A stretch of 64,000 nucleotides of DNA, taken from positions 24,102,822 to 24,166,821 of the forward strand of contig CAIIXF020000008.1 in assembly GCA_903813345.2 (NCBI GenBank), given 5' to 3'. Numbering within the stretch: position 1 is the first letter of the stretch; the number at the start of each line of letters is the position of its first letter. This DNA comes from Owenia fusiformis. Lineage: Eukaryota > Annelida > Polychaeta > Sabellida > Oweniidae. Below, in pieces: positions 4,086-62,525 of this stretch. A program made the position numbers and the translations under genes. The notes beneath the pieces are model-generated. The model was not told the origin of the DNA. It saw only the letters and a program-made list of their open reading frames with translations, and did not search any database.

Positions 4086-4312
4086 ACTTTATCCATTAGC
4101 AAAAGCAGAAAGACAGAAATGAAACAAATCACAACAAAACTATACGAGGGGTGATCCAAAAGTCTTGGACGCCCCGCTCTAACTTTGCTATTTTCTAATG
4201 TAATTACATGAAACTTCCAGATAATAAAGATCAACATCTTAACAACTTTGTGTATAAATTTCAACAGAAACTAATAAAATTTAGCTACTTTTCTGAATAT
4301 CTTTTAATACCG

Positions 4313-8130: not shown

Positions 8131-8335
8131 GTAAGATTCAATCTTCTTAATCTTTTAAAGGTTGAGATAACAGTGCAATGTTATGATAAGTTCATACACA
8201 TCATAGGTATCTGTTTAATTGTCCCACTGAACAACATTCGAAAGGGATATAGAGAAGCTGTCAATCCGTCCTTCTGTCTGTCCAGGTGATAACTCAAATA
8301 CTGGTTGACAGATTTGATTCGTTTATAGGCTTATG

Positions 8336-10007: not shown

Positions 10008-10013
10008 CTTATG

Positions 10014-22545: not shown

Positions 22546-22562
22546 CTCCTGTCAGATTAATA

Positions 22563-24396
22563 GGGATGTTTCAGCTATTCGGAATCTGAAAGTGAAAGTC
22601 AGATTTCAGGGGTCATGTCATAAGTTCAGTTGCATTAAACGTTTATTATAACTGATAAATCAATAGTTTCAAAGTTAAAAACATCAATGTGCTTTTTAGC
22701 GAATATAGCAACATAAAATAATTTCAAGATGCTTTTATTTGTTATTCGCTGCGGATTACATTTATTAGAAATATGACACAAAGTATATTCTCTTGTACTG
22801 AATATTACATGTATTGATAGAACAGTTGATTGAGCAGTTTAAGCAGTTTCAAAGAGATTAACCCTCCTTATACTAAGACCGGCACACAATTCTGTGAGCT
22901 TTGCCAGATGTTGTTGTGGGTGGCGAAAAAGTGTACCTATAACCTTAAAAACCTTGATGTGACCAATCACATGCTCTACATAACTCCGCCTACTCCCAAT
23001 TTTTCTGTTTAGCCGCTTACATTTTTTACGTAAATTTAGGGGTTTTATGCGTATTTCAGAACTTTTATACTTCCTAAGGAGTGGATATCGACATGGATAT
23101 ATTTTATCAGCTAAAAGTCTACAGTCTTCAGGGAATACTAAAGGTCCCCCGGGCCCAATATTTGCCATATAGCCAAATGTTTGTGCATCATTCATATGAC
23201 CTAAAAAGCCACTATGGACATAACGAAGGTCATTGTTATTATCTACTATTAGTTGGGTATGCATACAATGGCATCCTCTATTTCCAGAGTAAAAAAGTGC
23301 TTGGGGTTCATTTTCTGGCCTGTTAATTTCATGGGATGTTCCATCAATAGAGCCAATTGCAAATGGGAGATCATTCCAATTATTCCTCATTGCATTCCAT
23401 TCTTCAAGAGATGGCCAGCGTACATTGGATGCATATACATGTAGTTCCCATAATATTGGCCAAATGTCATTAATGACTCGTGACACAGTTGTAATGCTAA
23501 CATCGAACATCAGGGAGAGTAGAGGATAACAAGGGTACGATCTCAGCCAGATCAATGTCAGGAGTAGTCTATTGTGAGGTGACATGTTATGTCGCATACC
23601 AAAAGTTCTAGGCAGAAAATTACCAACCATCTCATGAAACGTATTAACTGTTTTACCAACAGTTTCAAAAAACTCATATGGGTGTTTTTCAAATAATCCA
23701 AGGACATCTCGTCCTTGCCAATTGTTGTTATCTGCGCCCAATCTGTTACGAAAATTTAACAACGGATCTGGAGGAGGCGCCAATAAAAACAATAGGGTTG
23801 GAATTATCTCACCTTAAAGGCCTTCTGGTGGTGGTGCAGCTAGAAACATAAGCAATGCAACTAATGCATGCTTCTCTCTTAGGCTCAAAGTGCGCATTCT
23901 ACTGAAAATACAATCATAAAAATACTTCACTATTTTTGACATTCTCCCTGAACAAATTGCCTAAACAACTCAGGATCTATTTCAAAAGCTTCAATGGGTA
24001 TATAGTATGAGAGTAGACTATATATAGTATTTGTATGTATACAATACATTCATTGAAGTATTTAATACTATTCATATAAATCAAACACTTATTGCCTTCT
24101 TCATTGATGTTCACTCTCCACAGGAATTGACTGTAAAATGTCGGAACAGAAAGGTATGTATTCATTATTGTTTATGATTCTCTTGATAATAATTGAGTCT
24201 AGATAAGTAAATATGTATTTGTTTACCTGATTATTGTAGAGTTTACATGAAAATATGGAACTGATGACCGTATACAGGAAGAATCAAACCATATCGTCCA
24301 AAATCTAAACCCTTATATTATGACACGACCCCTGAAATCTGACTTTCACTTTCCCTGTAAAGCTCACTTTCAGATTCCGAATAGCTGAAACATCCC
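22563..24396. mobile_element. DDE_Tnp_4-type DNA transposon, 1.83 kb, TAATA flanks
   Basis: Inverted termini start GGGATGTTTCAGCTATTCGG and continue for about 65 bp into AAGTCAGATTTCAGGGGTC. The right copy has 14 additional bases inside. Direct flanks TAATA (22558-22562 and 24397-24401) look like a target duplication; classical Harbinger elements duplicate TWA, so five bases would be unusual. One transposase gene lies on the minus strand. A small plus-strand exon-like stretch (CAG acceptor near 24123, ATGTCGGAACAGAAAG, then GTATGT) may be the start of a second gene, but this is weak. Confidence 0.75.
22839..23792 (-). CDS. DDE superfamily endonuclease (Harbinger/ISL2EU-like transposase)
   Basis: The frame is 317 residues with no internal stop. 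A helix-turn-helix lies at about 88-115 (LSLMFDVSITTVSRVINDIW). The RNase-H-like catalytic fold follows, with D150 (AIGSIDGTSHE), an YSGNRG..H..Q block at 168-180, D202 (GFLGHMNDAQTF), D229 in a LADKIYP block, and the catalytic E273 (RSYVEHVIGHIK). These match the DDE_Tnp_4 pattern, so all three metal-binding residues appear present. It would cut and join DNA at the TIRs of 22563-24396. Upstream on the same strand (about 23815-23900) is a second open piece MRTLSLREKHALVALLMFLA ending in APPPEGL and a stop. It resembles the start of the main frame (LLAPPPDP), so the true N-terminus may be longer and interrupted by a stop or intron. Typical family members are 330-420 residues, so 317 may be short by the N-terminal part. 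Confidence 0.85.
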   Translation of the reverse strand: MFLLAPPPDPLLNFRNRLGADNNNWQGRDVLGLFEKHPYEFFETVGKTVNTFHEMVGNFLPRTFGMRHNMSPHNRLLLTLIWLRSYPCYPLLSLMFDVSITTVSRVINDIWPILWELHVYASNVRWPSLEEWNAMRNNWNDLPFAIGSIDGTSHEINRPENEPQALFYSGNRGCHCMHTQLIVDNNNDLRYVHSGFLGHMNDAQTFGYMANIGPGGPLVFPEDCRLLADKIYPCRYPLLRKYKSSEIRIKPLNLRKKCKRLNRKIGSRRSYVEHVIGHIKVFKVIGTLFRHPQQHLAKLTELCAGLSIRRVNLFETA

Positions 24397-24401
24397 TAAT
24401 A

Positions 24402-26475: not shown

Positions 26476-27970
26476 CTTTTTATGTCCCCACCACATAGTG
26501 TGGGGCCATATTGTCGTCCTAGGCGCGTCCGTTCGTCCGTCCGTCTGGTTGTCTGTCTGTCCGTACGTCCTTTTTATGTCCCCACCACATAGTGTGGGGC
26601 CATATTGTCGTCCTAGGCGCGTCCGTCCGTCTGGTTGTCTGTCTGTCCGTCCGTCCGTACGTACGTCCAGCAGTTTTCTCCAAAATCCTTTTTATGTCCC
26701 CACCACATAGTGTTGGGCCATATTGTCGTCCTAGGCGCGTCCGTCCATCCGTCTGGTTGTCTGTCTGTCCGTACGTCCGGCAGTTTACTCCAAAACCGCT
26801 ACAGGTATCGCCTTCAAATTTTCAGGAATAACTTGTGAGTGCATACAGGCATACAGATGTGGATGAAAAAAATTAACTCGATAGCTACTTCCTGTCAGCC
26901 ATTTTGAGGTCAAATGCTAAAATCTTTGTCTGCAAACTTTAAGAAAAATGGCTACACAGTTGCTTTTAAAACTTTAAAATCTTGTTCAGCTCACTTCATT
27001 CTACATCTGATTAGGTTGTGGACCTGTTAGCTCAGTCATGTCAGCCATTTTGAATGTCTTCAGAAAAGTTAGCACGCGATAATACTTTGTATCACATTGA
27101 ATGGTGTTTTTGAGTTTTCATACTTTAACTATTTAGTAGCTTTATAAATAATTTCAGGTGTGCTTTGTTGTAAAAGCCTATGTTATTGTTAACAGTAGTT
27201 ATATGTGATAATTTTGTAAAAGGAAATCAGCAAAAACTCATAATCACTTTTTTATTGTCAAGTCTTGACAAGTCTTGTCAAGTCTGTAAAGTCTTGTCTA
27301 CGCGTTTTCAGGTGAACCGTTTGGTAGATCAATTTCAAATTTTCAGGGATGATTCCTAGTATGAAAATCTAGATCTGATTAGTTTTTTGGCTTTTTAGGT
27401 AAATGTCAAGGCAGCCATTTTGGATTTTGGGTGAACCGTTTGGTAGATCAATTTTGAAATTTCAGACATGATTCTTAGTATGAAAATCTGAATTTGATTA
27501 GTTTTTTGGCATTCTGGATAAATGTCAAGGCAGCCATTTTGGATTTTCTGTCCTAAAATCTTGTCTGTAAAGTCTTGTCTACGCGTTTTCAGGTGAACCG
27601 TTTGGTAGATCAATTTCAAATTTTCAGGGATGATTCTTAGTATGAAAATCTAGAACTGATTAGTTTTTTGACATTCTGGGTAAATGTCAAGGCAGCCATT
27701 TTGGATTTTCCATCCTTAAATCTTGTCTGTAAAGTCTTGTTGAACTGTTTGACGGATCAATTTCAAATTTCCAGGGGTGGTTCTTAGTATGAAAATCTAG
27801 AACTAACTAATTTTGGGGGATTCTGGGTAAATTTTAAGGTGGCCATTTTGGATTTCCATCCTCAAATTGTGTCAGTAAGTCTTGTCTACTCATTTTCAGG
27901 ATAACCATTTGACGGGATCACCCATTGGTGGGGACATTTTGTACACATTTGTGTTCTTGTTTGTTAAATA
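26476..27970. mobile_element. Hairpin-headed element (copy b) with triplicated head and 162-bp-type units
   Basis: The head CCCCACCACATAGTGTGGGG occurs three times (26486-26505, 26580-26599, 26698-26717, the last with one mismatch). Each is preceded by TTTTTATGT and followed by CCATATTGTCGTCCTAGGCG and a GTCCGTCC microsatellite. The body (26790-27240) is shared with 42790-43075 and 43440-43620. Four to five units of GGTGAACCGTTTGGTAGATC..GCAGCCATTTTGGATTTT follow (about 27290-27910). The far end has CACCCATTGGTGGGGACATT. Open frames full of PSV and RPS are translations of the microsatellite and are not genes. Confidence 0.75.
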
Positions 27971-30650: not shown

Positions 30651-30659
30651 TCCTTCGAA

Positions 30660-31060
30660 CAGCCAATCATAAACAAATAACTCACAAAAATGGCCATCAT
30701 TTTCAAAATGGTTGCTCAATATGGCCAAATTGTCATCAGAAAGTGTAATATGCTACTAATTAGGCAAATATAAAATTTCATCAAGATCGCATACACGTAC
30801 ATGTCAATGGTGGCCATTTTGCATAATGGCCGCTTACTTGCCAAAATCTCATAAGACAGTGGCGCATGCTTATACATGTAATATTCACATATCAAATATG
30901 AACAAAATTGCTCCACTGCTGTTCGAGTAATGGTAAAAAGGGTAAAAATGGCAGCCATTTTTCAATATGGGCGCCTTCTTCCAAAAGTGTAATTAGACAG
31001 TGTGCCATGCTTATAGTATTCACATACCAAATATGAACAAAATCGCTCAACTACTTTTCG
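30660..31060. repeat. ATGGCCGCC / AATATGAACAAAAT tandem-like repeat
   Basis: Three degenerate units contain 'AATGGCCGC', 'AGACAGTG..GCATGCTTATA' and 'CACATA(C/T)(C/A)AAATATGAACAAAAT(T/C)GCTC'. They are the inverse or diverged relatives of the array at 35370-36190. Non-coding. Confidence 0.6.
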
Positions 31061-31294
31061 AAGCTGGCTCCTTTTGCCACATGTCTCTTGAATTAAAACT
31101 ATATCTCAAGAAGTATTGTAAATTGATAACTGAATTTTCTGAGAATCTGAGATGGACTGGTGGGAGGCATTGGTTGAGTTCACATGCATTCCCCCATTAG
31201 AGCACCAACCACACAGATACTTTGTGAGCACACTGACTGTGAACTCCCATAGATCGTTTTAACCCTTTGTGTATAGTGTATTGTATTCCTCCAG

Positions 31295-33520: not shown

Positions 33521-33560
33521 ACTTTTTATCGTACATAATAAAGGTACGATATTGTAGTCA
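33521..33560. repeat. Hairpin-headed repeat head (copy i)
   Basis: ATCGTAC at 33528-33534 and GTACGAT at 33544-33550 form a 7-bp stem. They are preceded by CTTTTT and followed by ATTGTAGTCAGCTTG. The right flank matches that at 56152 (ATATTGTAATCAGTTTG) although the stem there is GCACC/GGTGC. It lies only 27 bases after a WDR27 splice donor. Confidence 0.65.
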
Positions 33561-33876
33561 GCTTGACGATAAACCTTTTATTTCATTAACAAGATACTTT
33601 TTTAAAATCAACCAAAATTTCCTTTGTACAATTACAATATTGAGAGACCTAAATATGTTGTGTTTATGTCGTTTTGTTCCAATGAGGTTCGGAAACAAAA
33701 CAAGTGTTTGATGTGTTTTCTAACACAATACAGATAAAGGTATATATATATATTTTTTTTTAAAATTATATTGTTACCATTCAAAAGATCACCATTAAAT
33801 TGACGATGTGTTAAATTTTTAGATTTTTTTTATGAATGGTTTAAGAGAAACGTGTGTTCAAAAAGTTCTCCATATC

Positions 33877-35104: not shown

Positions 35105-36200
35105 TTATCCCATCGAACGAAGTTCGGAGGGATATAGGGAACGCCAATAACTCAAATACCGTTGGCCCGATTTTGTTCATATTTTGTACACATATACCCT
35201 ATGGGGCTAAAAGTTCTGCTCGAAAGCCGATTTTCAAAATGGCCGCTCATTTCAAAATGGCGGCCATTTTAGTGCCGATTTTACAGTTATTTAGGTGCAA
35301 TAAGTAAAAATGTAATAGCAATATGTTTTAAATGTAAAAAAATTATAAAGGACATTAATAATGCTACAAATGTAGATATTAAAGAAGCACATGGCAGCCA
35401 TCTTGAAAAATGGCGGCCTTTACTCATCATTTTACGATTTTTGCTGCAACTCAAAAAATAGTGGAGCGATTTTGTTCATATTTGGTATGTGAATACTATA
35501 AGCATTGCACACTGTCTAAAGACACTTTTCGTAGAAGGCGGCCATTTTGAAAATTTTTTTGAAAAATGGCCGCCATTTTAACGTATTTTACTATAACTTG
35601 AAAAGTCGTGGAGCGATTTTGTTCATATTTGGTATGTGACTACTATAAGCATGGCACACTGTCTAATGACACTTTTGGTAGAAGGCGGCCATTTTGAAAT
35701 TTTTTTTGAAAAATGGCCGCCATTTTAACATATTTTACTATAACTCGAAAAGTAGTAACGATTTTGTTCATATTTGGTATGTGAATACTTTAAGCATGGC
35801 ACACTGTCCTATGACACTTTTGGTAGAAGGCGGTCATTTTGAAAAAAAAATTGAAAAATGGCCGCCATTTTAATGTATTTTACTATAACTCGAAAGTCGT
35901 GGAGCGATTTTGTTCATATTTGGTATGTGACTACTATAAGCATGGCACACTGTCCTATGCCACTTTTGGTAGAAAGCGGCCATTTTGAAAAGAATTTTGA
36001 AAAATGGCCGCCTTTTTAACGTATGTTACTTTAACTCGAAAAGTAGTGGAGCGATTTTGTTCATATTTGATATGTGAATACTTTAAGCATGGCACATTGT
36101 CTAATAAAACTTTGGGGAGTAGTCGGCCATTTTGAAAAATGGCCACCATTTTTATGTGTGTTATTTTACAAGCATGTGTGCGATTTTTCAAAAAATTTAG
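35105..36200. repeat. Tandem array of ~120-125-bp GCGGCCATTTT / AAATGGCCGCC units
   Basis: A CGAAC GAA GTTCG hairpin (35114-35126), GGGATATAGGGAACGCC and the AACTCAAATACC repeat lead in. About six units follow, each with GAAGGCGGCCATTTTGAAA, a T/A-rich spacer, AAAAATGGCCGCCATTTTAA, ATTTTACTATAACTCGAAAA, GGAGCGATTTTGTTCATATT, and AGCATGGCACACTGTC. Each unit is itself partly palindromic around the A/T spacer. Non-coding. Confidence 0.8.
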
Positions 36201-36539
36201 AGGTGGCTACTTAAAAGCATATTATTTCTTCTGATGACAACTTGGCTAGTGAGCAACCATTTTAAAAATGGTGGCCTTTCTGGTGTGTTGTTTTATGATA
36301 TTTGCTATTCATTTGTAAAAATGCCAGCCATTTCTGTTCGATGGGATTCGCTACGCTTTGGCGTTGCTGTTGTTCTGGTTATCTATATACAACAAACTCG
36401 AACAACACAAACACACCACAAAGTGCTTCCTTTGTTGATAGGATACTCATGCCCAGTGATCGTACAAAACATCCAAGGTGTTGGTGGTGCCTGGGGAGGG
36501 GGCTTGGCTTGGGAAACAAGGAATAGGATAGATAGTATT

Positions 36540-37790
36540 ATGCAATGGAGGGCTGCTATTGGCTTATTTAACTATGGTAGCAAATCAATTAAAAAATACT
36601 TTAAAGTTACTTCTAAGGATGGAAGAACTATATACCCTTTTCCCATTTTAACCATTTTACTCATGGTCACAACCCTGATTTTCATGTACAAGATGAACTT
36701 TGGATTAGAACTCATATTTGCCTCCATCTTAGGATTTTTCCTAATCACATACTCGATAGTAACTATTGTTTTACTACCACTAGTTTGTTTATACATAATT
36801 AAACTCCAAGTGAAGTCACCTTTTAGCCCCTATACCACCATATTATTTCTAAAACTGCTGCTTAGCTCCTTAGTTATACCAGGGCTACTGACCCTTACAT
36901 TCACACCAAACGTGACATCAATTCTTCCTCTAATGTCAGGAGATGTGCATCCTAATCCAGGCCAAAATGAAAAACTAACACTTCTGCTTTCAAATATAAA
37001 TAGTATAACTGCAAATGAAGGTGCAAGGTTTGAATTATTGAAGCGACGAGCAAGGGAAATTAATCCAGCTGTAATCAGCCTCTGTGAGACTGGTATTTCT
37101 AAACTCAAAATGGAATCCGGAGACTTTGACATTGAGGACTATAATTCTATTAATAATGAATCAGGTAGAGGTTTAATTATGTATATACACAAAACTTTGG
37201 CATCTAAACCATTACATCTAGACTTTTATGTTAAAGGTACTGAAATACTTTTTTCTGAAATTAAGATACAGCAGAAAAGACTACTGCTAGGTGTATGTTA
37301 TAGATCACCCAGCCTAAATGCTAAAGAAACAAAAGAATATTTCTCATTATTTAAGCAACAATTATCCAAAATTGAAAATTCTGTTCCAAAATTTGACCAT
37401 GTAGTCATGATGAGAGATTTAAATGCCAAAAATTCTGAATGGTTTGACAACCAGGATGACAACTTAGCAGGAAAAATATTACTTGATTACCTTGATGAAT
37501 ATAATTATACCCAATTAGTGACCCAACCAACAAGAATCACTAAACAGTCTAAAACCTGCATTGACCATATAATAACTGATTCTCCTGATATATTTGACTC
37601 CTGGGAAGTAACTGACCCAATCGGTAAATCTGATCATTGTACTACTTCCTCTAATATAAATATCATAACACACAAAATCAAGCCAAGCAAAAGGACAATC
37701 TGGAAATATAATGAAACCAATATTGAACAATTAAACTCTGAAATCAGAAACTTTTACTGGATGACTATCATAGATGGTGACCTACAGTAA
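36540..37790 (+). pseudogene. LINE ORF: hydrophobic leader, 2A-like motif, APE endonuclease
   Basis: The first in-frame ATG inside the LINE is at 36540; the open frame reaches back to 36234 in host repeat and is not meaningful there. Residues from about 36640 to 36890 encode at least three strongly hydrophobic segments (such as LLMVTTLIFMYKM and IVTIVLLPLVCLYII). At 36939-36965 the protein reads GDVHPNPGQ, close to the 2A ribosome-skipping consensus D(V/I)ExNPGP that is known from CR1/L2-type LINEs, but with H for E and Q for the final P. The APE endonuclease follows, with ISLCETGIS (catalytic E), VCYRSPS, MMRDLNAKNSEW (GDFNA-type, G to R), and KSDHC (catalytic SDH). The frame ends early at a stop around 37788. 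Confidence 0.85.
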
Positions 37791-40193
37791 CCACAAATTT
37801 TGTTGATAAACTAATGTCCATTTACAAAAAACACATACCTCATAAAATCATCAAACCTAAATACAATGACCAACCCTGGTTTAATAACTTTCTTCAATTG
37901 GAAATGAAAAAGAAAAAAAGCTCTTCAATTCAATGAAAAAACATCCTACTTATCAAAATAAAATACTTTATGATCAGCAAGCAACAAAAGTTACAAATTT
38001 AATCAAAAAAAACAAACTTGACCATGACCAAAATCTAATCAAATCTATTGATAATATGACCAAGAATGATAAGAATTACTGGAAAATTATTAGATCTTTC
38101 CTTGGAAACAATTTTAAGAAATCAGAAATAGCATGCATTATAGATGACAGAACTGGTATCCCAATTAATAAAAACCTGGACATAGCCAATTCTTTTATGA
38201 AATATTTTTCTGGTAAAAATCACATGGAGATCAACAACAACGACACACTACCAAACTTTCCATCGAGAACAAATTCCTTCATTATATCTGCAATTACCAA
38301 CCAACATGAGATAATGAAACTTATACTTAACCTAGATACTTCAAAAACATGCGGTCCTGATAACATAACCAATAAAATGTTAAACTTAACAGCCCATACA
38401 CTTTCAAAACCACTCTCTAAATTATTCAATAAGCTTTTGACAAAAAATATTTTCCCGGAAACATGGAAAATTGGTAGTGTCTGTCCAATTTTTAAAAAAG
38501 ATGATAAGACAAATATAAAAAATTATAGACCAATTATGCTCCTAAATACCCTATCAAAGCTCTTTGAAAAAGTTCTTGCTGATCGAATTAAAAAACATCT
38601 TATACAAAATGATCTACTTTTTAAACATCAATCTGGTTTCCTGCCTGGCCACAGTACACACTCTCAACTTTTAGCTATTGAGCACTACCTGCAATGCACT
38701 TTCGAGGAAGGCAAAGCCTCTAAATCAATATTCCTTGATATTTCGGCCGCTTTTAATTCGTACCAAATAATCTTCTATTGCTTAAACTTAAATCTTACGG
38801 TATCCAAGGCCAACTGCTCAATGTACTCAAATCCTATCTGAATGACAGAAAATTCTTTGTTAATGTAGGTGGCGAATTTTCAAAACTTTCTGATACTAAT
38901 TTTATTAACTGTGGCGTCCCACAGGGGTCTATTCTAGGGCCTATTCTATTTATCTTGTACATTAATGATATTCCTGACAACCTGGGTGGCCAGTGCTACA
39001 TCTATGCTGATGATACCTCTTTACATTTTAATCTTGATCCAAAAGACCCCACTAATGTTGATGATTCTGTTAAGTCAAGCCTAGAAAGCATTGAACAATG
39101 GTCAACTACTTGGAAACTACAGTTTAAACCAGAAAAAAGTCATGAACTGATATTTCATAAACCTAGAACACGTATTAATGATATCAGTCCATCTAATCTT
39201 AATAATATGGAAATAGTTAGAGCTGATTCCCATAAACACCTCGGTTTCACGTTTGATCCCTGCTTAACACACAAGCACCATATAAGTAACATCTATGATA
39301 ACGTAACAAAAATGTTGAATCCATTTAAAAAACTCAAAAACAAAATAGGATCTAGTCATTTGGAGACAATCTTCAACTCCTTCATATTGCCCCATTTTGA
39401 TTATGGTACCATCATTTACAATAGTTCTTCCAAATATCTACTTCAAAGGCTCGATAGATTATATTATAAAGCTGCTATCTACTGCTCAGGTTGTATTCAC
39501 GGGAGCAGCACAGATAAAGTACTAACGCTACTTCAATGGCCATCTCTTGACACTAGAAGAAAAATGTTTATAAACAACTTCATGTACAAAATAGTACATG
39601 GTCCTAACCCTAAATTTCTTGATGACATATTTGATAAGTTCAAAAAACCAGAAACTCGAAACTTGCATAACACTGATGAGTTCATTATACCAAAATGCTC
39701 TGAACGGTACAGAAATTCAGCGGTACCCTCTGCAATCTCCAACTGGTTAGCCCTGCCAAATACATTAAAGAGTAAAGCTACTATCCAGAATTTCAAGAAA
39801 CATCAAAAACTGCTTTTCAAAAATCCAATAAATGTCATCACAACCAGCAAACTGAACCTCACAAGGAGCCATGAGATAATAGTAAATAAATTCAGGGCCG
39901 ACTTTTTATTTAAGGCCCAACTATATGCTCATAACTTTAGCAATATTGACAACCCAAAGTGTTCATGTGGACATCCACAAACAGTTAAACACTTTTTCCA
40001 CTGTGCTCATTTGACACATGCCAGGGATGAATTTAATCAATACCTGAAAAACCTGATCCCTGAAATTTTTGACAGGCAAATCTCTCAGCATAAATATCTT
40101 GAAGTTCTGAAATATGGCTCAACTGAAATCTCTATCGAACTTAATTCGAAAATGATGACCAGGCTAGCTTCCTTTATAAAAGCCAATATATGA
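37791..40193 (+). pseudogene. LINE reverse transcriptase region, frameshifted
   Basis: 37791-37932 continues the protein in another frame (IPHKIIKPKYNDQPWFNN). 37933-38790 carries TCGPDNITNKML, FPETWKIGSVCPIFKK, NYRPIMLLNTLSKLFEK, QSGFLPGHST and motif A FLDISAAFN (first Asp kept). A frameshift near 38785 moves to the frame of 38778-40193, with LKLKSYGIQGQLLNVL, motif B GVPQGSILGPILF, motif C CYIYADDTSLHF, and the C-terminal CSCGHPQTVKHFFHC zinc cluster. All RT motifs are present, but in broken frames. Confidence 0.9.
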
Positions 40194-42657: not shown

Positions 42658-45130
42658 TTAGACTCCAGATGAAATCTGGAGTCTATTGTTTTTGTCAGTT
42701 TTCTTATTGTTATTATTCTTATTATTTTTATGTCCCAACCACATAGTGTGGGGCCATATTGTCGGCCTAGGCGCGTCTGTCCATCCGTCTGTCCGTCCGG
42801 GAGTTTTCTACAAAACCTCTACAGATATCACTTTCAAATTTTCATGGATAACTTATGAGTGCATATAGATGTGGATGAAAAAAATTTAACTCGAAACCTA
42901 CTTCCTGTCGGCCATTTTGAAGTCAAATGCTGAAATCCTTGTCTGCAAACTTTAAGAAAAAACGGCTTCACGGTTGCTTTTAAAACTTTAACATCTTGTT
43001 CAGCTCACTTCATTCTACATCTGATTAGGTTTTGGACCTGTTAGCTCATTCATGTCAGCCATTTTGAATGTCTTTTCTAACTTTTTATTCCATAGGATAA
43101 CATGTAAAAAAAACGGTATTTTTGTAATCAGTGGTAAAATATGATATTTTTGACAAATTTTCACTTAACCATAGCATCAATGTGTTTAAGCCATGACATA
43201 CGGCGCCGTATGCTATGAATTATGGATTTTTGCTACTTCAGACTCAAAACAAGGCTAAGTGTCAACATCGCCGGATCGTTTGGAAAATTAGAATTAAATC
43301 ACTTAATTTCCGACGGTTCTGATGATGACTTTAACTATGCAATAAAAAGAACATCCTATCCACTCATGGATATTGATATCTGCACTCTCTCGCTACTCTC
43401 ACTCGTGCAGATATAGTATCCATTAGTGGATAAATCACCGGATATCCTCTATGTATCATATTGAATGGTGTTTTCAGTTTTCATACTTTAACTATAGTAG
43501 CTTTATAAATAATTTCAGATGGACTTTGTTGTAAAAGCCTATGTTATTGTTAACAGTAGTTATATGTGATAATTTTGTAAAAAGAAATCAGCAAAAACTC
43601 ATAATCACTTTTTTATTGTTGGCCATTTTGGATTTTTCCGTCCTAAAATCTTGTCTGTGAAGTCTGTGTAAAATATGATATTTTTGACAAATTTTCACTT
43701 AACCATAGCATCAATGTGTTTAAGCCATGACATACGGCGCCGTATGCTATGAATTATGGATTTTTGCTACTTCAGACTCAAAACAAGGCTAAGTGTCAAC
43801 ATCGCCGGATCGTTTGGAAAATTAGAATTAAATCACTTAATTTCCGACGGTTCTGATGATGACTTTAACTATGCAATAAAAAGAACATCCTATCCACTCA
43901 TGGATATTGATATCTGCACTCTCTCGCTACTCTCACTCGTGCAGATATAGTATCCATTAGTGGATAAATCACCGGATATCCTCTATGTATCATATTGAAT
44001 GGTGTTTTTCAGTTTTCATACTTTAACTATAGTAGCTTTATAAATAATTTCAGATGGACTTTGTTGTAAAAGCCTATGTTATTGTTAACAGTAGTTATAT
44101 GTGATAATTTTGTAAAAAGAAATCAGCAAAAACTCATAATCACTTTTTTATTGTTGGCCATTTTGGATTTTTCCGTCCTAAAATCTTGTCTGTGAAGTCT
44201 GTGTAAAATATGATATTTTTGACAAATTTTCACTTAACCATAGCATCAATGTGTTTAAGCCATGACATACGGCGCCGTATGCTATGAATTATGGATTTTT
44301 GCTACTTCAGACTCAAAACAAGGCTAAGTGTCAACATCGCCGGATCGTTTGGAAAATTAGAATTAAATCACTTAATTTCCGACGGTTCTGATGATGACTT
44401 TAACTATGCAATAAAAAGAACATCCTATCCACTCATGGATATTGATATCTGCACTCTCTCGCTACTCTCACTCGTGCAGATATAGTATCCATTAGTGGAT
44501 AAATCACCGGATATCCTCTATGTATCATATTGAATGGTGTTTTTCAGTTTTCATACTTTAACTATAGTAGCTTTATAAATAATTTCAGATGGACTTTGTT
44601 GTAAAAGCCTATGTTATTGTTAACAGTAGTTATATGTGATAATTTTGTAAAAAGAAATCAGCAAAAACTCATAATCACTTTTTTATTGTTGGCCATTTTG
44701 GATTTTTCCGTCCTAAAATCTTGTCTGTGAAGTCTTGTCTGCGCGTTTTCAGGTGAACCGTTTGGTGGATCAATTTCAAATTTTCAGGGATGATTCTTAG
44801 TATAAAAATCTAGATCTGATTAGTTTTTTGGCATTCTGGGTAAATGTCAAGGCAGCCATTTTGGATTTTCCGTCCTAAAATCTTGTCTGTAAAGTCTTGT
44901 CTATGGGTTTTCAGGTGAACCGTTTGGTAGATCAATTTCAAATTTCCAGGGATGATTCTTAGTATGAAAATCTAGAACTGATTAGTTTTTTGGCATTCTG
45001 GATAAATGTCAAGACAGCCATTTTGGATTTTTCGTCTTAAAATCTTGCCTGTAAAGTCTTGTCTACGCGTTTTTTTGTGAACTGTTTGGTAGATCAATTT
45101 CAAATTTTCAGGGATGGTTCTTAGTATTAG
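42658..45130. mobile_element. Hairpin-headed element (copy c) carrying a 3x 534-bp tandem unit
   Basis: It opens with a perfect 10-bp hairpin, GACTCCAGAT GAA ATCTGGAGTC (42661-42683), followed by TATTGTTTTTGTCAG. 50 bases later a second head, CCCAACCACATAGTGTGGGG (42734-42753), is followed by CCATATTGTCGGCCTAGGCG. The body to 43075 and from 43445 matches copy b (26790-27240). 44690-45120 contains three 162-bp-type units (GGTGAACCGTTTGG..CAGCCATTTTGGATTTT). The middle is expanded by the tandem unit described separately. Confidence 0.75.
43134..44735. repeat. Three tandem ~534-bp near-identical units
   Basis: The units start at 43134, 43668 and 44203 with GTAAAATATGATATTTTTGA. Each encodes the same 64-residue open frame (MDFCYFRLKT.., starts 43222, 43756 and 44291), which has no recognised domain and is probably not a gene. 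Each contains the perfect 16-bp palindrome CATACGGCGCCGTATG (43197-43212 and its copies). Each also has an imperfect 28-bp hairpin, TATCCACTCATGG..ATATCTGCAC against GTGCAGATATAG..TAGTGGATA (43357-43432 and copies), with loop TCTCTCGCTACTCTCACTC. Near-identity implies recent amplification or gene conversion, or an assembly duplication. Confidence 0.9.
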
Positions 45131-53644: not shown

Positions 53645-56130
53645 ATTTTTATTTTTTTATTTTTTATATTTCCTTTATTTCATAATACATCATACAAACA
53701 GATACAAGGCCTACGCCGAAGCATTATTGGCCCTGTTAAAGTAGTTACAATATAGGTTAAAATAGGTCACAATGTAAAAATGATAGATGTAAAACATATT
53801 TATGAACATGAAATAATCGTGAAAACGTGAAGACAGGTCAGAGATATATGTACATATTAATGAATATTGGACTATTTAACTTCCTTGACAATAGAGTGTA
53901 AAAATTCGGCTGTTAATTCAATAGCCTTTTTATTTGTAATTGTGTCAAGAGAAGGATCTGCAAAAAGTAGAAAGTCTACCCTGTCTTCCTGTTTTCTATT
54001 ATTAAAAGAGTTTAAATTAAAGGATGGCAGTCCCCCTAGTTCTCTGTGAAAATTGAGTCTTTGAATGTTAAAAAGAGGGCAATGGAGCAATAGGTGTTTG
54101 GTTGATTCAGTAGAGTGACCACATTTACATTTGGCATTTGGAATATTTTTGAAGTTATGTGTAAAAAGATGCTGCCTAAAAATGAGATCACATCTCGTTT
54201 TATTTAAGACAGTTTCTTTATCTCTGGATAGGTTTAATCTTGGGGTTGTGAATTCTTTCTTTTCCCCATTCAAAAATGTTCTTATTTTATACTTAAATGA
54301 GTTGCGTGAGTGTGCTTGTTTCAGTTCATCAGGTAAATTATCCCATAATTTAATACTGGATAAAGCTGTAAACTTCCTAAGTTTAGCAGATGCTTTGAAT
54401 GGGATCTTAAAATCATTGCTACGTCGAAGTCTTTGGTGACTTACCTGATTCTTATACTGTTCAAAAACATTTGAAACATATGAAGGCATCTTATAATTAT
54501 TTACAAAGTCAAACATAAAAACTAGTTTTTTTTCTTTTCTTCGATTGGATAAGGATCTCCATCCAAGACATGCCATCACCTTCTCAGAGTTTGACCCTTT
54601 GATGCAACCACTTACAATAAGACCCGCTCTATATTGGACTCTATCTAAACTTGGTAAGAGGTTTAGATTTGCGCTGTCCAAAATAATATTGCCATATTCG
54701 AGATGTGGGAGAATGAATGCCATATAAATTGTCTGTAAGTGTTTTGATCTTACTGAAAATTTGAGTGCTTTTAATGGATTTAACATTTTATTACACCTAG
54801 TAATCACTGAGTTAATGTGTTCTTCAAAGCTAAGGTGTTTGTCTAAAATGATGCCTAAATGTTTATGGCTATTTACAAGAGGTATTTGCTCATTATTCAT
54901 TGTTACTGGAATTTGTTTCTTGACTTTTCGTGTGTGTTTAGACTGAAAGATAACCTCTTTACTCTTAGATGCCTTAAATTTGAGTTTCCATTTAGTGGAC
55001 CAATTAGCCATTTCATTGATATCTGATTGAATTTTTTGATTTGTTGCTTCAACTGATTCATTCTTTGGTACTGTCAAGAAGATGGAACTATCATGAGCAT
55101 ATAAGAAAAGTTTACAATTATGAACTGAGTCTGCTAAGTCATTAATATATAGCAAAAATAAGAGGGGGCCAAGAATTGATCCTTGGGGAACCCCACTATT
55201 TATTTAATAGGATCTGGAGTCTCGATTTTGAAGATTTTGAGGAATATTTGCACCAGCTTCAGCATTACATGAAATGTCTGAATAAGTATCATTGATCCTT
55301 ACTTTTAATTTCCTATCTGTTAGATATGAGGTCAATAACTCTATAATATTGTTGCCTAATCCATAAGATTTCATCAAAATTATCGGCTAACATATTTACA
55401 ATAGAAAATAGTTGCTTCTGTGTATCATGTCCTGGTAAGAACCCGGACTGATTTTCATAAATGAGGTTCTTCGAGGAAACATGGTCAAAAATAGCTGTAT
55501 AAATTATTCGTTCAAAAAGCTTTGAGAGATTATTGAGGAGGCAGATTGGTCTGTAGTTGGATGGGTCTGTTTTTGAATTTTTATTCTTATATATAGGAAC
55601 AATTATACCCAGTTTCCAGCAATCAGGAAATGTATTTGTCTCCAAGAAAATAGTGAATAGTTTAACTAGTTCAACATCGATAGAGTCAGCCACAAGTTTC
55701 AACATTTTGTTAGTGATATTGTCTTCTCCACCTTTTTTAGATGAATTAAGGTTCCGTAAGTTATCATTTATATTTTTTCGAGAAATATTTATGTAAGTCA
55801 AAGATTCATTTGTTTTCATAGGACAGGGGGGCAATGACTTATCAATTATATTATGGTGGAACTTAGTCATGAACTTATTTAAAAAAGCATTTGCTTTTCC
55901 AAAGTCATCATCAATAATTTTATCATTTATCTCAAGAAGAGGAATGCCTGTAGAAAACTTGCTTCCTATAAGTTTCTTTATAATTGTCCAGTAGTTTAGG
56001 CCATTTGCTGCTTCTTCATCCAAGTTATTACAAAGTTTATCTTGATAGTTGTTCTTTGAGTCAGTAATTAATTTGGTAAGATATGCGTTTTGCTTTTTAA
56101 ATTGGTTGATGTTTAAGTCATTGCTGTCCT
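53645..56130 (-). mobile_element. Decayed LINE (L2/CR1-like), 5' truncated
   Basis: On the minus strand it runs from RT finger region (56130) to an A-rich 3' end near 53645 (AAATATAAAAAATAAAAAAA on that strand). It abuts the hairpin head at 56138. Its 5' part is duplicated to the right at 56420-56825 and 57263-57410. Confidence 0.8.
53872..56023 (-). pseudogene. LINE reverse transcriptase, inactive
   Basis: The first open piece (56023-55313) has GGEDNITNKMLKLVADSID, FPDCWKLGIIVPIYKN, NYRPICLLNNLSKLFE and QSGFLPGHDT. Motif A (the first catalytic Asp) is deleted: the frame jumps from MLADNF to LMKSYGLGNNIIELL in another frame at about 55380. Motif B GVPQGSILGPLLF at about 55145-55190 is preceded by a stop. 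The second piece (55155-53872, 427 residues) begins at the motif B end. It has YAHDSSI where motif C should be YADD, so a metal-binding Asp is replaced by His. It ends with CKCGHSTESTKHLLLHC. Family resemblance to the LINE at 36.5-40.4 kb is clear, but the sequences are well diverged. Confidence 0.88.
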
Positions 56131-56137
56131 TTTTATC

Positions 56138-56151
56138 GCACCCTCAGGTGC
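56138..56151. repeat. Hairpin head (copy e)
   Basis: GCACC CTCA GGTGC with TTTTTATC before and TATATTGTAATCAGTTTGCC after. An identical stem is at 57418-57431 in the tandem duplicate. The satellite array lies directly to its right, so this is the head of the element whose body became the satellite. Confidence 0.7.
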
Positions 56152-56829
56152 TATATTGTAATCAGTTTGCCGGACAGGTGGGCGTCCCGAATAATCTTGT
56201 CTACAGGTTTCCAGCCAAACCGTTTGAGGAATTCATTTGAAATTCTCAGGGATGTGTCTACCTATGAAAGTTTAGAACTGACTAGTTTTTCGGCATTCTG
56301 GGTAAAAATTAAGGCGGCCATTTTGGATTTTCCATCCTAAAATCTTGTCTGTCAAGGCTTGTCTACAGGTTTCCAGCCAAACCGTTTGAGGGATTCATTT
56401 GAAATTTTCAGGGATGTTTCTTTCTTATATATAGGAACAATTATACCCAGTTTCCAGCAATCAGGAAATGTATTTGTCTCCAAGAAAATAGTGAATAGTT
56501 TAACTAGTTCAACATCGATAGAGTCAGCCACAAGTTTCAACATTTTGTTAGTGATATTGTCTTCTCCACCTTTTTTAGATGAATTAAGGTTCCGTAAGTT
56601 ATCATTTATATTTTTTCGAGAAATATTTAAGTAAGTCAAAGATTCATTTGTTTTCATAGGACAGGGCGGCAATGACTTATCAATTATATTATGGTGGAAC
56701 TTAGTCATGAACTTATTTAAACAAGCATTTGCTTTTCCAAAGTCATCATCAATAATTTTATCATTTACACTGTATCTCAAGAAGAGGAATGCCTGTAAAA
56801 AACTGGGTTCCTATAAGTTTCTTTATAAT

Positions 56830-57262
56830 AACGCAGATGCGAGTAAGTAGTTACCAGTTTCACCACCAGGTGGCTCGTTCGGGTCAGATAGCATGGCGAG
56901 TATAGTAGAATGTTCCCTTTAACTTAAATTACATCTGTTTTAGTGGTTCAATTTTCATATAACCCTTATGTATCTAATTGTTATGTGAATTAAAATATGT
57001 CCAGTAAAAGAAATTTTTATCTGTCCAATACAAGAAAAGATATTTCTCTTTTTGCGATTTTGTAACATGGGGTCTATGGGGAATCAACCCGAGCAAGAAG
57101 TCACATTTTCAAAAAAATTAAATTTTCAAAGTTAATAAACAATTTTCGAAATCATATTTGTAGATGTACTTTTACATGTAGATTTCAAATATGATATCAC
57201 TTTGACTGACTTTTGAATATTTAATGACGTAAATCAAGATTTTTTCTACTCGCATCTAGTCT
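56830..57262. mobile_element. 433-bp MITE with empty site in the sister duplicate
   Basis: It starts AACGCAGATGCGAGTA and ends TACTCGCATCTAGTCT, with GATGCGAGTA as short TIRs. The undivided sequence TTTATAATTGTCC is present at about 55975-55985. Compared with it, only AT is duplicated (56828-56829, 57263-57264). It is non-coding. The insertion happened after the 838-bp duplication. Confidence 0.8.
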
Positions 57263-57479
57263 ATTGTCCAGTAGTTTAGGCCATTTGCTGCTTCTTCATC
57301 CACGTTATTACAAAGTTTATCTTGATAGTTGTTCTTTGAGTCAGTAATTAATTTGGTAAGATATGCGTTTTGCTTTTTAAATTGGTTGATGTTTAAGTCA
57401 TTGCTGTCTTTTTTATCGCACCCTCAGGTGCTATTTTGTAATCAGTTTGCCGGGCGGTTGGGCAGGCAGGCGGGCGGGC

Positions 57480-60400
57480 GTCCCAAATAATCTTGTCTAC
57501 AGGTTTCCAGCCAAACCGTTTGAGGAATTCATTTGAAATTCTCAGGGATGTGTCTACCTATGAAAGTTGAGAACTGATTAGTTTTTCGGCATTCTGGGTA
57601 AATGTTAAGGCGGCCATTTCGGATTTTACGTCCTAAAATCTTGTCCGTCAAGGCTTGTCTACAGGTTTCCAGCCAAACCGTTTGAGGGATTCATTTGAAA
57701 TTTTCAGGGATGTTTCTACCTATGAAAGTTTAGAACTGATTAGTTTTTTTGAATTCTGGGTAAACAGTTGATAATAAGGCAGCCATTTTGGATTTTCCGT
57801 CCTAATATCTTGTCTGTCAAGGCTTGTCTACAGGTTTCCAGCCAAACCGTTTGAGGGATTCATTTGAAATTCTCAGGGATGTTTCTACCTATGAAAGTTT
57901 AGAACTGATCAGTTTTTTGGCATTCTGGGTAAATGTGAAGGCGGCCATTTTGGATTTTCTGTCCTAAAATCTTGTCTGTCAAGGCTTGTCTACAGGTTTC
58001 CAGCCAAACTGTTTGAGGGATTCATTTGAAATTCTCAGGGATGTTTTCACCTATGAAAGTTTAGAACTGATAAGTTTTTCCGTATTCTGGGTAAATGTTA
58101 AAGCGTCCATTTTGGATTTTCTGTCCTAAAATCTTGTCTGTCAAGGCTTGTCTACAGGTTTCCAGCCAAACCGTTTGAGGGATTCATTTGAAATTCTCAG
58201 GGATGTTTCTACCTATGAAAGTTTAGAACTGATTAGTTTTTCGGCATTCTGGGTAAATGTTAAGGTGGCCATTTTGGATTTTCCGCCCTAAAATCTTGTC
58301 TGTCAAGGTTTGTCTACAGGTTTCCAGCCAAACCGTTTGAGGGATTCATTTGAAATTCTCAGGGATGTTTGTACCTATGAAAGTTTAGAACTGATTAGTT
58401 TTTCGACATTCTGGGTAAATGTTAAGGCAGCCATTTTGGATTTTCCATCCTAAAATCTTGTCTGTCAAGGCTTGTCTACAGGTTTCCAGCCAAACTGTTT
58501 GAGGGATTCATTTGAAATTCTCAGGGATGTTTGTACCTATGAAAGTTTAGAACTGATTAGTTTTTCGACATTCTGGATAAATGTTAAGATGGCCATTTTG
58601 GATTTCCGTCCTTAAATCTTGTCTGTCGAGGCTTGTCTATAGGTTTCCAGCCAAACTGTTTGAGGGATTCATTTGAAATTCTCAGGGATGATTGTACCTA
58701 TGAAAGTTTAGAACCGATTAGTTTTTCAGCATTCTGGGTAAATGTTAAGGCGGCCATTTTGGATTTTCCGTCCCAAAATCTTGTCTGTCAACGCTTGTCT
58801 ACAGTTTATCAGCCAAACCGTTTGAGGGATTCATTTGAAATTCTCTGAGATGTTTCTACCTATGAAAGTTTAGAACTGATTAGTTTTTCGGCATTCTGGG
58901 TAAATGTTAAGGCGGCCATTTTTGATTTTCCGTCCTAATATCTTGTCTGTCAAGGCTTGTCTACAGGTTTCCAGCCAAACTGTTTGAGGGATTCATTTGA
59001 AATTCTCAGGGATGTTTCTACCTATGAAAGTTTAGAACTGATCAGTTTTTTGGCATTCTGGGTAAATGTTAAGGCGGCCATTTTGGATTTTCTGTCCTAA
59101 AATCTTGTCTGTCAAGGCTTGTCTACAGGTTTCCAGCCAAACCGTTTGAGGGATTCATTTGAAATTCTCAGGGATGTTTCTACCTATGAAAGTTTAGAAC
59201 TGATTAGTTTTTCGGCATTCTGGGTAAATGTTAAGGTGGACATTTTGGATTTTCCGTCCCAAAATCTTGTCTGTCAAGGCTTGTGTACAGGTTTCCAGCC
59301 AAACCGTTTGAGGGATTCATTTGAAATTCTCAGGGATGGTTTTACCTATGAAAGTTTAGAACTGATTAGTTTTTCGGCATTCTTGGTAAATGTTAAAGCG
59401 TCCATTTTGGATTTTACGTCCTAAAATCTTGTCTGTCAAGGCTTGTCTACAGGTTTCCAGCCAAACTGTTTGAGGGATTCATTTATTATTCTCAGGGATG
59501 TTTCTACCTATGAAAGTTTAGAACTGATTAGTTTTTCGGCATTCTGGGTAAATGTTAAGGTGGCCATTTTGGATTTTCCGCCCTAAAATCTTGTCTGTCA
59601 AGGTTTGTCTACAGGTTTCCAGCCAAACCGTTTGAGGGCTTCATTTGAAATTCTCAGGGATGTTTGTACCTATGAAAGTTTAGAACTGATTAGTTTTTCG
59701 ACATTCTGGATAAATGTTAAGATGGCCATTTTGGATTTCCGTCCTTAAATCTTGTCTGTCAAGGCTTGTCTATAGGTTTCCAGCCAAACCATTTGAGGGA
59801 TTCATTTGAAATTCTCAGGGATGTTTGTACCTATGAAAGTTTAGAACTGATTAGTTTTTCAGCATTCTGGGTAAATGTTAAGGCGGCCATTTTGGATTTT
59901 CCGTCCCAAAATCTTGTCTGTCAAGGCTTGTCTCCAGTTTTCCAGCCAAACCATTTGAGGGATTCATTTGAAATTCTCAGGGATGTTTCTACCTATGAAA
60001 GTTTAGAACTAGTTAGTTTTTTGGCATTCTGGGTAAATGTTAAGGCAGCCATTTTGGATTTTCCGTCCTAAAATCTTGTCTGTCAAGTCTTGTCTACAGG
60101 TTTCCAGCCAAATCGTTTGAGGGATTCATTTGAAATTCTCAGGGATGATTTTACCTGTGAAAGTATAGAACTGATCAGTTTTTTGGCATTCTGGGTAAAT
60201 GTTAAGGCGGCCATTTTGGATTTTCTGTCCTAAAATCTTGTCTGTCAAGGCTTGTCTACAGGTTTCCAGCCAAACCGTTTGAGGGATTCATTTGAAATTC
60301 TCAGGGATGTTTCTACCTATGAAAGTTTAGAACTGATTAGTTTTTCGGCATTCTGGGTAAATGTTAAGGTGGCCATTTTGGATTTTCCGCCCTAAAATCT

Positions 60401-62525
60401 TGTCTGTCAAGGTTTGTCTACAGGTTTCCAGCCAAACCGTTTGAGGGATTCATTTGAAATTCTCAGGGATGTTTGTACCTATGAAAGTTTAGAACTGATT
60501 AGTTTTTCGACATTCTGGGTAAATGTTAAGGCAGCCATTTTGGATTTTCCGTCCTAAAATCTTGTCTGTCAAGGCTTGTCTACAGGTTTCCAGCCAAACT
60601 GTTTGAGGGATTCATTTGAAATTCTCAGGGATGTTTGTACCTATGAAAGTTTAGAACTGATTAGTTTTTCGACATTCTGGATAAATGTTAAGATGGCCAT
60701 TTTGGATTTCCGTCCTTAAATCTTGTCTGTCAAGGCTTGTCTATAGGTTTCCAGCCAAACTGTTTGAGGGATTCATTTGAAATTCTCAGGGATGATTGTA
60801 CCTATGAAAGTTTAGAACCGATTAGTTTTTCAGCATTCTGGGTAAATGTTAAGGCGGCCATTTTGGATTTTCCGTCCCAAAATCTTGTCTGTCAACGCTT
60901 GTCTACAGTTTATCAGCCAAACCGTTTGAGGGATTCATTTGAAATTCTCTGAGATGTTTCTACCTATGAAAGTTTAGAACTGATTAGTTTTTCGGCATTC
61001 TGGGTAAATGTTAAGGCGGCCATTTTTGATTTTCCGTCCTAATATCTTGTCTGTCAAGGCTTGTCTACAGGTTTCCAGCCAAACTGTTTGAGGGATTCAT
61101 TTGAAATTCTCAGGGATGTTTCTACCTATGAAAGTTTAGAACTGATCAGTTTTTTGGCATTCTGGGTAAATGTTAAGGCGGCCATTTTGGATTTTCTGTC
61201 CTAAAATCTTGTCTGTCAAGGCTTGTCTACAGGTTTCCAGCCAAACCGTTTGAGGGATTCATTTGAAATTCTCAGGGATGTTTCTACCTATGAAAGTTTA
61301 GAACTGATTAGTTTTTCGGCATTCTGGGTAAATGTTAAGGTGGACATTTTGGATTTTCCGTCCCAAAATCTTGTCTGTCAAGGCTTGTGTACAGGTTTCC
61401 AGCCAAACCGTTTGAGGGATTCATTTGAAATTCTCAGGGATGGTTTTACCTATGAAAGTTTAGAACTGATTAGTTTTTCGGCATTCTTGGTAAATGTTAA
61501 AGCGTCCATTTTGGATTTTACGTCCTAAAATCTTGTCTGTCAAGGCTTGTCTACAGGTTTCCAGCCAGACCGTTTGAGGGATTCATTTATAATTCTCAGG
61601 GATGTTTCTACCTATGAAAGTTTAGAACTGATTAGTTTTTCGGCATTCTGGGTAAATGTTAAGGTGGCCATTTTGGATTTTCCGCCCTAAAATCTTGTCT
61701 GTCAAGGTTTGTCTACAGGTTTCCAGCCAAACCGTTTGAGGGATTCATTTGAAATTCTCAGGGATGTTTGTACCTATGAAAGTTTAGAACTGATTAGTTT
61801 TTCGACATTCTGGATAAATGTTAAGATGGCCATTTTGGATTTCCGTCCTTAAATCTTGTCTGTCAAGGCTTGTCTATAGGTTTCCAGCCAAATCATTTGA
61901 GGGATTCATTTGAAATTCTCAGGGATGTTTGTACCTATGAAATTTAGAACTGATTAGTTTTTCAGCATTCTGGGTAAATGTTAAGGCGGCCATTTTGGAT
62001 TTTCCGTCCCAAAATCTTGTCTGTCAAGGCTTGTCTACAGTTTTCCAGCCAAACCATTTGAGGGATTCATTTGAAATTCTCAGGGATGTTTCTACCTATG
62101 AAAGTTTAGAACTAGTTAGTTTTTTGGCATTCTGGGTAAATGTTAAGGCAGCCATTTTGGATTTTCCGTCCTAAAATCTTGTCTGTCAAGTCTTGTCTAC
62201 AGGTTTCCAGCCAAATCATTTGAGGGATTCATTTGAAATTCTCAGGGATGATTTTACCTGTGAAAGTATAGAACTGATTAGTTTTTTGGCATTCTGGGTA
62301 AATGTTAAGGCGGCCATTTTGGATTTTCCGTCCTAAAATCTTGTCTGTCAAGGCTTGTCTACAGGTTTCCAGCCAAACAGTTTGAGGGATTCATTTGAAA
62401 TTCTCAGGGATGTTTCTACCTATAAAAGTTTAGAACCGATTAGTTTTTCGGCATTCTTGGTAAATGTTAAGGTGGCCATTTTGGATTTTTCGTCCTAAGA
62501 TCGTGTCTGTGAAGGGTTGTTTAAA
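57480..62525. repeat. 162-bp satellite array with 13-unit higher-order repeat
   Basis: About 31 units of period 162 bp follow the pattern CTTGTCTACAGGTTTCCAGC, AAACCGTTTGAGGGATTCAT, CTCAGGGATGTTTCTACCTA, AGTTTAGAACTGATTAG, CATTCTGGGTAAATGTTAAG, GCGGCCATTTTGGATTTTCC. Since 162 is divisible by 3, long open frames arise but are not genes. From about 58130 the variants repeat with a period of 2104 bp (13 units): 58130-60233 and 60234-62337 are near-identical. The array ends at about 62525 in AAAAAAAAGAATTTCCC. Relatives of the unit are at 27290-27910 and 44690-45120. Confidence 0.92.

Follow-up and report, generated by a model that had tools for sequence, protein, structure and literature searches.

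Within a stretch of 64,000 nucleotides from the annelid Owenia fusiformis (hereafter the window), short hairpins recur whose stems differ from place to place while their flanks look alike, raising the question of what kind of element carries them and which pairing those elements preserve. A preliminary description had proposed that the structure is selected or copied as such, and had compared the hairpins with the ends of Helitrons, IS200/IS605-type transposons or LINEs. We consider it very probable (roughly nine chances in ten) that the hairpin heads are the 5' ends of several non-autonomous Helentron-type rolling-circle families (HINEs, of the DINE-1/Pearl kind). With the same confidence, the left arm of the hairpin is read as a 5' subterminal inverted repeat (subTIR), the right arm as a partly complementary inverted repeat (IR), and the main partner of the left arm as a distant 3' subTIR, behind which a short palindrome follows. 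The hairpin is not the organising feature of the elements. Positions below are those of the window, and all parts of these elements are given on the + strand.

The flank pattern TTTTTAT-N(5,35)-ATATTGT has six matches in the window, at 26477, 26571, 26689, 33523, 42725 and 56130, compared to 0.31 expected from dinucleotide shuffles, and all six enclose a stem of 6–9 Watson-Crick pairs with at most one mismatch. A similar, longer pattern, TTTTTAT-N(10,36)-ATATTGTARTCAG, was run on IMG/VR as a control; its 12 matches (10 distinct sequences) held just 2–3 pairs, two of which are forced by the pattern itself. When exact TTTTT and ATTGT flanks around at least 7 pairs were required, the + strand had four sites, and neither the − strand nor any of 60 Markov sequences had one. 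If each flank may contain one mismatch, the + strand has eight sites and the − strand three, against a simulated strand mean of 1.0 and maximum of 4; six of the eight are heads named in the preliminary description or their copies, and two are others. As the flanks were taken from that description, these tests of flank and hairpin are post hoc. Fold z-scores, calculated as DNA for nine sequences representing the heads of elements A, B, C, D, E and F1, range from −1.99 to −5.92, and a stretch at 32371 with the same right-hand box has a z-score of about zero. Rfam gave no match at the gathering threshold, and pattern scans for the core repeat returned 0 matches in viral contigs and 0 in prokaryote genomes.

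An inverted repeat is indeed present at all eight places that had been named, and the pattern is real, but the cases are not independent. Self-comparison of the window places the heads at 26477, 26571, 26689 and 42725 in one family, A, and those at 56130 and 57410 are duplication twins, so the strict flank class reduces to three sequence groups (A, B and C). Strict flanks are confined to these groups; D (42659), E (3978) and F (35107) belong to the class more loosely. The flanks ascribed to most heads hold in A, B and C but deviate elsewhere: the head at 42661 has TTATTA on its left and CTATTG on its right, and those at 3978 and 35114 have in common only a weak TAT-(T/A/G)-G box. That most heads would be followed by a microsatellite and GCCATTTTGGATTTT units was an overstatement, as an own GTCY microsatellite lies behind three of the eight (26486, 42734 and 3978) and GCCATTTTGGATTTT units behind four (26486, 42734, 56138 and 57418), while the head at 33528 has neither in sequence read to 34050. 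A scan of both strands for GTCY, blind to hairpins, found seven clusters at five loci on the + strand and none on the − strand. Hairpin heads precede five of them (four in A, one in E), and the degenerate head of F2 precedes one more; no head was seen in the 100 nt upstream of the cluster at 5789. All listed heads and all seven clusters share the + strand, at too few independent loci to speak of an orientation bias.

For each head, we searched the next 8 kb for the longest exact reverse complement of its left arm. Exact inverted matches of 12–13 nt between the two ends were found in three elements, A (26482/27926), F2 (8222/10357) and F1 (35107/36336), with spacings of 1449, 2142 and 1236 nt, respectively, and each lies just behind the repeats of its own element. 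For a single head, a match this long occurs within 8 kb in 11–16 of 300 random placements, so that any one match is weak by itself. Inverted matches of 12 nt at a distance of 0.9–3 kb occupy 26 binned places in the window, against 2.2 in Markov sequences, many of them contributed by other transposons. For F1 and F2 the partner reading is supported by tails that are alike over a further block and by heads that share motifs. Because A, F1 and F2 have the partner of the left arm beyond their repeats, 1.2–2.1 kb further right, the hairpin marks the 5' (left) end, and the earlier suggestion of a retroposon 3' end read on the other strand does not fit these elements.

The anatomy of 5' subTIR, IR and distant 3' subTIR is seen in A, F1 and F2; the other elements are represented by heads alone, or by heads with microsatellite or repeats. 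The first head of A (26477–26514) comprises TTTTT and the 5' subTIR ATGTCCCCACCA (26482–26493), then the IR GTGGGGCCAT (26500–26509) and ATTGT, with 9 of 10 pairs formed. A second copy (26571–26608, 9/10 pairs) follows as part of a 94-bp tandem unit, and a third (26689–26726) has 8/10 pairs owing to an uncompensated G to T in its IR. GTCY-type microsatellites behind these heads (26527–26778) are interrupted by heads two and three. The region 26477–26778 thus holds three heads in tandem, in steps of 94 and 118 bp and each with its microsatellite, before one element body, and is a tandem array of 5' ends only. Central tandem repeats with 119- and 162-bp units and GCCATTTTGGATTTT extend over 27311–27911 and precede the 3' subTIR TGGTGGGGACAT (27926–27937), an exact reverse complement of the head arm (12/12) and the sole window match in that orientation within one mismatch; two others have two mismatches. 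Behind it stands the short palindrome ACACA-TT-TGTGT (27943–27954, 5/5 pairs), and the whole tail folds no better than shuffles (z +0.8).

A second A element (42725–45127) has the head, the microsatellite, a triplication and repeats, and its right end is missing: the copy is cut at 45127 and no 3' subTIR was found for it. Its head has one stem mismatch more than the first head of A. The stem at 42734 had been written as fully paired and in fact contains an A x G opposition, and the sequence folds best not as the named stem but with the hairpin shifted, as CCACA/TGTGG. We also observe that a unit of ~534 bp, which includes the palindrome CATACGGCGCCGTATG, stands three times at 43134–44735 with 99.8–99.9% identity, and is either a recent amplification or an assembly artefact.

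Elements F1 and F2 form a second pair of relatives. The head of F1 (35107–35133) has the 5' subTIR ATCCCATCGAAC (35107–35118), a loop and the IR GTTCGGAGGGAT (35122–35133), with 10 of 12 pairs. It is followed by 4.7 copies of a 147-bp central tandem repeat (35448–36138), the 3' subTIR GTTCGATGGGAT (36336–36347, 12/12) and the palindrome ACGC-TTTG-GCGT (36353–36364, 4/4 pairs). A repeat stretch at 30657–31061 is inverted relative to the F1 array. The head of F2 (8221–8248) has the 5' subTIR TCCCACTGAACAA (8222–8234) and a degenerate IR, ATTCGAAAGGGAT (8236–8248); its hairpin retains 6 of 12 pairs (fold z −0.06), and a GTCY cluster follows at 8260. Two diverged repeat units (10026–10305, 79% identical) come before the tail, in which the 3' subTIR TTGTTCAGTGGGA (10357–10369, 13/13) is followed by a palindrome with 3 of 4 pairs. 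Inside F2, on the opposite strand, is a non-LTR retrotransposon coding stretch with endonuclease and/or reverse transcriptase domains (8530–10008). The two heads have TT-R-TCCCA..GAAC and AGGGATATAG-N-GAA in common, and the tails are alike over a further block (23/30 nt identical). The block common to both tails ends at 36371 in F1 and 10394 in F2, with GTTGCTGTT as its last letters; as it stops 24–25 nt behind the 3' subTIR, that repeat is subterminal. A pattern built from both tails has no third match within four mismatches on either strand of the window.

Element B carries the largest repeat array. In its head (56130–56165), a T-run precedes the left arm ATCGCACC (56135–56142), and the complementary IR GGTGCTAT (56147–56154) is followed by ATTGTAATCAG; 7 of 8 pairs form, and the DNA fold has −4.9 kcal/mol (z −3.9). 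GGGC-like units take the place of the GTCY microsatellite behind it, and 56195–56421 contains the first 1.4 central repeat units within the first copy of a tandem duplication. This duplication, in which 55584–56421 was copied to 56422–57717 (96.8% and 93.2% identity), also produced the second head (57410–57445, 7/8 pairs), so that the heads at 56130 and 57410 are one insertion, duplicated in tandem. The array proper (57492–62520) has ~31 copies (31.0, 92% matches) of a 162-bp central repeat with GCCATTTTGGATTTT. No 3' subTIR is recognisable behind the array, which stops at ~62520, and the window has no match to the head arm within two mismatches. In the second duplication copy there is in addition an insertion of ~430 bp (56830–57262), with GATGCGAGTA near both of its inverted ends; the first copy lacks it and supplies the empty site, overlapping by 2 bp (AT). 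The insertion is a MITE-like element for which both the filled and the empty site are present in the window.

Head B adjoins a non-LTR retrotransposon coding stretch on the opposite strand (53872–56143), again with endonuclease and/or reverse transcriptase domains. A relative of this retrotransposon, the coding stretch at 36201–40193 (endonuclease and/or reverse transcriptase domains), matches 56101–55370 and 55383–54028 on the minus strand as well as the duplicated piece 56756–56397. An empty site of B was sought by way of this neighbour, but to the right of B no match to the endonuclease part turned up, and as the endonuclease frame of the relative matched only itself, the filled B site cannot be closed.

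Heads C, D and E are less complete. The stem of C (33523–33561), ATCGTAC/GTACGAT, is fully paired (7/7) and followed by ATATTGTAGTCAG; no microsatellite, repeats (in sequence read to 34050) or 3' subTIR were found for it. Head D (42659–42685) has a perfect stem of 12 pairs (z −5.92), and the second A element starts ~40 bp downstream, interrupting D. Head E, at 3978–4040, has the 7-pair stem GGCTCAC/GTGAGCC (7/7) and then a GTCC/GTCY cluster, without a 3' subTIR being found; we also see an element inserted behind it at 4143–5238, the terminal inverted repeats of which, ~207 bp long and 79% identical, start TACGAGGGGTGATCCAAAAGTC. The search for a 3' subTIR of heads B to E and of the second A copy gave best exact matches of 7–9 nt, a length common in random placements. 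A candidate partner for D at 55212 (12 nt with 1 mismatch) is 12.5 kb off and within retrotransposon sequence, and was not counted. The 2 kb around C and around E contain no listed tandem array. Elsewhere in the window, 18581–19752 is a complex minisatellite of GGGGCCACTAGGATG-type units with a higher-order period of ~219 bp.

Taken as a whole, the features are those of HINEs. SubTIRs of 11–15 bp at both ends are found in A (12/12 nt), F1 (12/12) and F2 (13/13), and an IR beside the 5' subTIR in A (9/10), B (7/8), C (7/7), D (12/12), E (7/7), F1 (10/12) and F2 (6/12). The GTCY microsatellite stands behind the head in A (four heads), E and F2, and is absent in C and F1. Central tandem repeats, which are common in this class without being required, have 162-bp units in A and B and 147-bp units in F1, with two units in F2, and the palindrome behind the 3' subTIR is short, with 5/5 (A), 4/4 (F1) and 3/4 (F2) pairs. 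Comparison of copies puts the left border at a T-run in A, B and C and at TT in F1 and F2; the borders of all five come from such comparison, not from empty sites. A canonical Helitron (Helitron1, with 5' TC, a 3' hairpin plus CTRR, A/T insertion and no inverted repeats at its ends) does not fit: A, F1 and F2 have inverted repeats at both ends, the left border by this comparison is a T-run or TT, and the block common to the F1 and F2 tails ends GTTGCTGTT rather than CTRR.

The preliminary description knew of no family defined in this way, but DINE-1/HINE elements have just such a head. As described in the available text on Cg_HINE of Crassostrea gigas, an 11–12-bp 5' subTIR has a 7–12-bp complementary IR 1–12 nt away, several families have a GTCY, GTCC or GTCK microsatellite, the centre holds satellite-like repeats, and the right module has the 3' subTIR and then a palindrome; insertion is T-rich, and some families within the one genome are unrelated in sequence (Vojvoda Zeljko 2020, PMC7492417). 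The present elements have similar left and central modules, a 3' subTIR with a putative palindrome on the right and T-rich left borders, a likeness judged on architecture, and differ in the three tandem heads of A, the 31-copy array of B and the lost hairpin of F2. The same source describes short arrays of ~160 bp central repeats in Pearl and a comparable architecture in DTC84 and MgE, all from bivalves; the resemblance of the Pearl repeats to ours is one by description.

DINE-1 of Drosophila is reported with a partial IR beside the 5' subTIR and a GTCY microsatellite (Yang and Barbash 2008, PMC2374699), and the HINEs of mites have palindromic subTIRs (mite and mosquito HINEs: Thomas 2014, PMC4067079). 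For both groups these accounts, as far as available, give 12–15-bp subTIRs, central repeats, a 3' stem-loop with a changing stem and TT or T-rich insertion (PMC2374699, PMC4067079), and the subTIRs, IR, GTCY microsatellite, repeats and putative T-rich left borders seen here resemble them. The sequences differ from the D. melanogaster subTIR, ATACCCGTTACTC (PMC2374699), and the mite 3' subTIR is placed 38–60 bp from the 3' end, against ~24–25 nt from the end of the common block here (PMC4067079). Helitron2-like FoHeli elements of Fusarium oxysporum are described with asymmetric terminal inverted repeats and a 5' hairpin whose stem varies by subgroup, and thus share end inverted repeats, 5' hairpin and group-specific stems with our elements; that fungal group includes coding (Rep-Hel) members, whereas no coding member was seen here (PMC5148889). 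The kind is therefore already described, and the present elements are further members of the DINE-1/HINE class known in flies, mites and oysters. The earlier comparison to Helitron-like ends was sound as regards a transposon class with family-specific stem sequence. No evidence was found for an IS200/IS605 or LINE origin, and no such protein is tied to the heads.

Open frames of at least 110 aa were scanned with Pfam for Helitron proteins (Rep, helicase), and no such domain was detected in 18 of the 22 window frames, namely those other than 3929–4270, 9683–10027, 56352–56810 and 59721–60071; seven of the 18 have non-LTR or DDE transposon domains and the remaining 11 had no match. For Helitron Rep, a rough H-x-H regular expression applied to stop-free stretches of at least 70 aa gave four matches that were unconvincing by eye. 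The literature suggests that the Rep/helicase/endonuclease of an autonomous Helentron would nick at the T-rich 5' border, recognise the subTIR at both ends and then peel off a single strand, that displacement would stop at the 3' palindrome, and that insertion would take place in a T-rich target without target duplication. The subTIRs may differ among families because each family tracks an autonomous partner of its own. If a protein has to recognise one word at both ends, the 5' and 3' subTIRs should change together as families diverge.

Related copies allow a comparison of which pairing is kept. Between the heads of B and C, five of seven pairs are equal, one has changed on both sides (C-G to T-A) and one on one side, costing B a pair. 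In family A, relative to the ten pairs of the head at 26477, the copy at 26571 is identical and those at 26689 and 42725 each have one one-sided, pair-breaking change, with none compensated. These two changes strike one stem pair from opposite sides (G to T in the IR of 26689–26726, C to A in the left arm of 42725–42762) and combined would give an A-T pair. For F1 and F2, the 12 pairs between 5' and 3' subTIR comprise nine equal pairs, two double Watson-Crick changes and one one-sided change at the edge. In the local hairpin, compared over 12 pairs in the same register, six pairs are equal, two have changed on both sides (one of them from Watson-Crick to Watson-Crick) and four on one side; four pairs switch between paired and unpaired. 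The palindrome behind the tail (four pairs) has two equal pairs, one double change and one broken pair. Each F element pairs better between its own ends (12/12 and 11/12) than with the end of the other (10/12 and 9/12). We also see that, in the same register, the IR matches the 5' subTIR at 9/10, 10/12 and 6/12 positions in A, F1 and F2, against 12/12, 12/12 and 11/12 for the 3' subTIR.

The pairing that is best kept is thus that between the two ends of an element, while the hairpin is lost in F2, in a sample of two elements. The earlier statement that stems differ and yet stay complementary applies between families, but not inside family A, where changes are uncompensated, nor to the F2 head at 8221. 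We tentatively suggest, as a possibility more likely to fail than to hold, that end-to-end complementarity and not the hairpin is conserved, with both ends drifting together, the IR lagging, and the ends read as a matched pair. A Rep protein might for example bind one word at both ends, in opposite orientations, and the 5' hairpin would then be a by-product that can be lost, or an earlier version of the signal. A literature search found no earlier report of end pairing kept without the hairpin in the text available to it.

The opposite emphasis, in which the local hairpin is itself selected and kept as structure (as at the ends of IS200/IS605 elements or in Helitron terminators), with only a secondary role for the 3' match, is compatible with the HINE reading and seems to us doubtful, slightly more so than the matched ends. 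A hairpin in six of six flank matches, the double change between B and C within seven pairs and the perfect 12-pair stem of D speak for it. Set against these are the uncompensated change that also separates B from C, the uncompensated nature of both stem differences in family A, and the weaker pairing of the IR than of the 3' subTIR with the 5' subTIR in A, F1 and F2. F2 in particular has lost its hairpin (6/12 pairs, z −0.06) and has an exact 5'/3' match over 13 nt.

It is very unlikely that the elements are instead MITEs mobilised by a DDE transposase and bounded by (sub)terminal inverted repeats. They do have inverted repeats at both ends and no coding capacity was seen in them, and the window contains a DDE transposon, with a DDE_Tnp_4 and HTH_Tnp_4 frame on the − strand (22839–23813, Pfam); this frame lies between inverted repeat arms at 22558–22623 and 24318–24401. 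The 3' repeat, though, is ~24–25 nt inside the common block of F1 and F2, and the available text of PMC2374699 regards a clearly subterminal repeat at the 3' end as unusual among MITEs; the GTCY microsatellite, the IR beside the 5' repeat and the tail palindrome are HINE features. Least probable of all is that the heads, taken on the minus strand, are 3' ends of retroposons (LINE/SINE). In its favour, ATAAAAA does stand behind the hairpin on that strand in A, B and C, and the window has many non-LTR coding stretches. Against it, the heads of A, F1 and F2 each have a matched inverted partner at the far end of the element, with GTCY microsatellite and/or tandem repeats making up the interior. 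No known reverse transcriptase frame falls within A or between the F1 head and tail, and those inside F2 and adjoining B are on the opposite strand.

For HINEs, which these elements very probably are, several unrelated families in one 64-kb stretch offer a small natural experiment on which pairing persists. The available text of PMC4067079, PMC7492417, PMC2374699 and PMC5148889 does not settle which feature of the ends is read by the Helentron protein, and end-to-end covariation without hairpin covariation, if it holds genome-wide, would show which one it is. Otherwise the result is one of annotation: this stretch of the Owenia fusiformis genome is rich in HINEs, and the satellite-like array is part of one.
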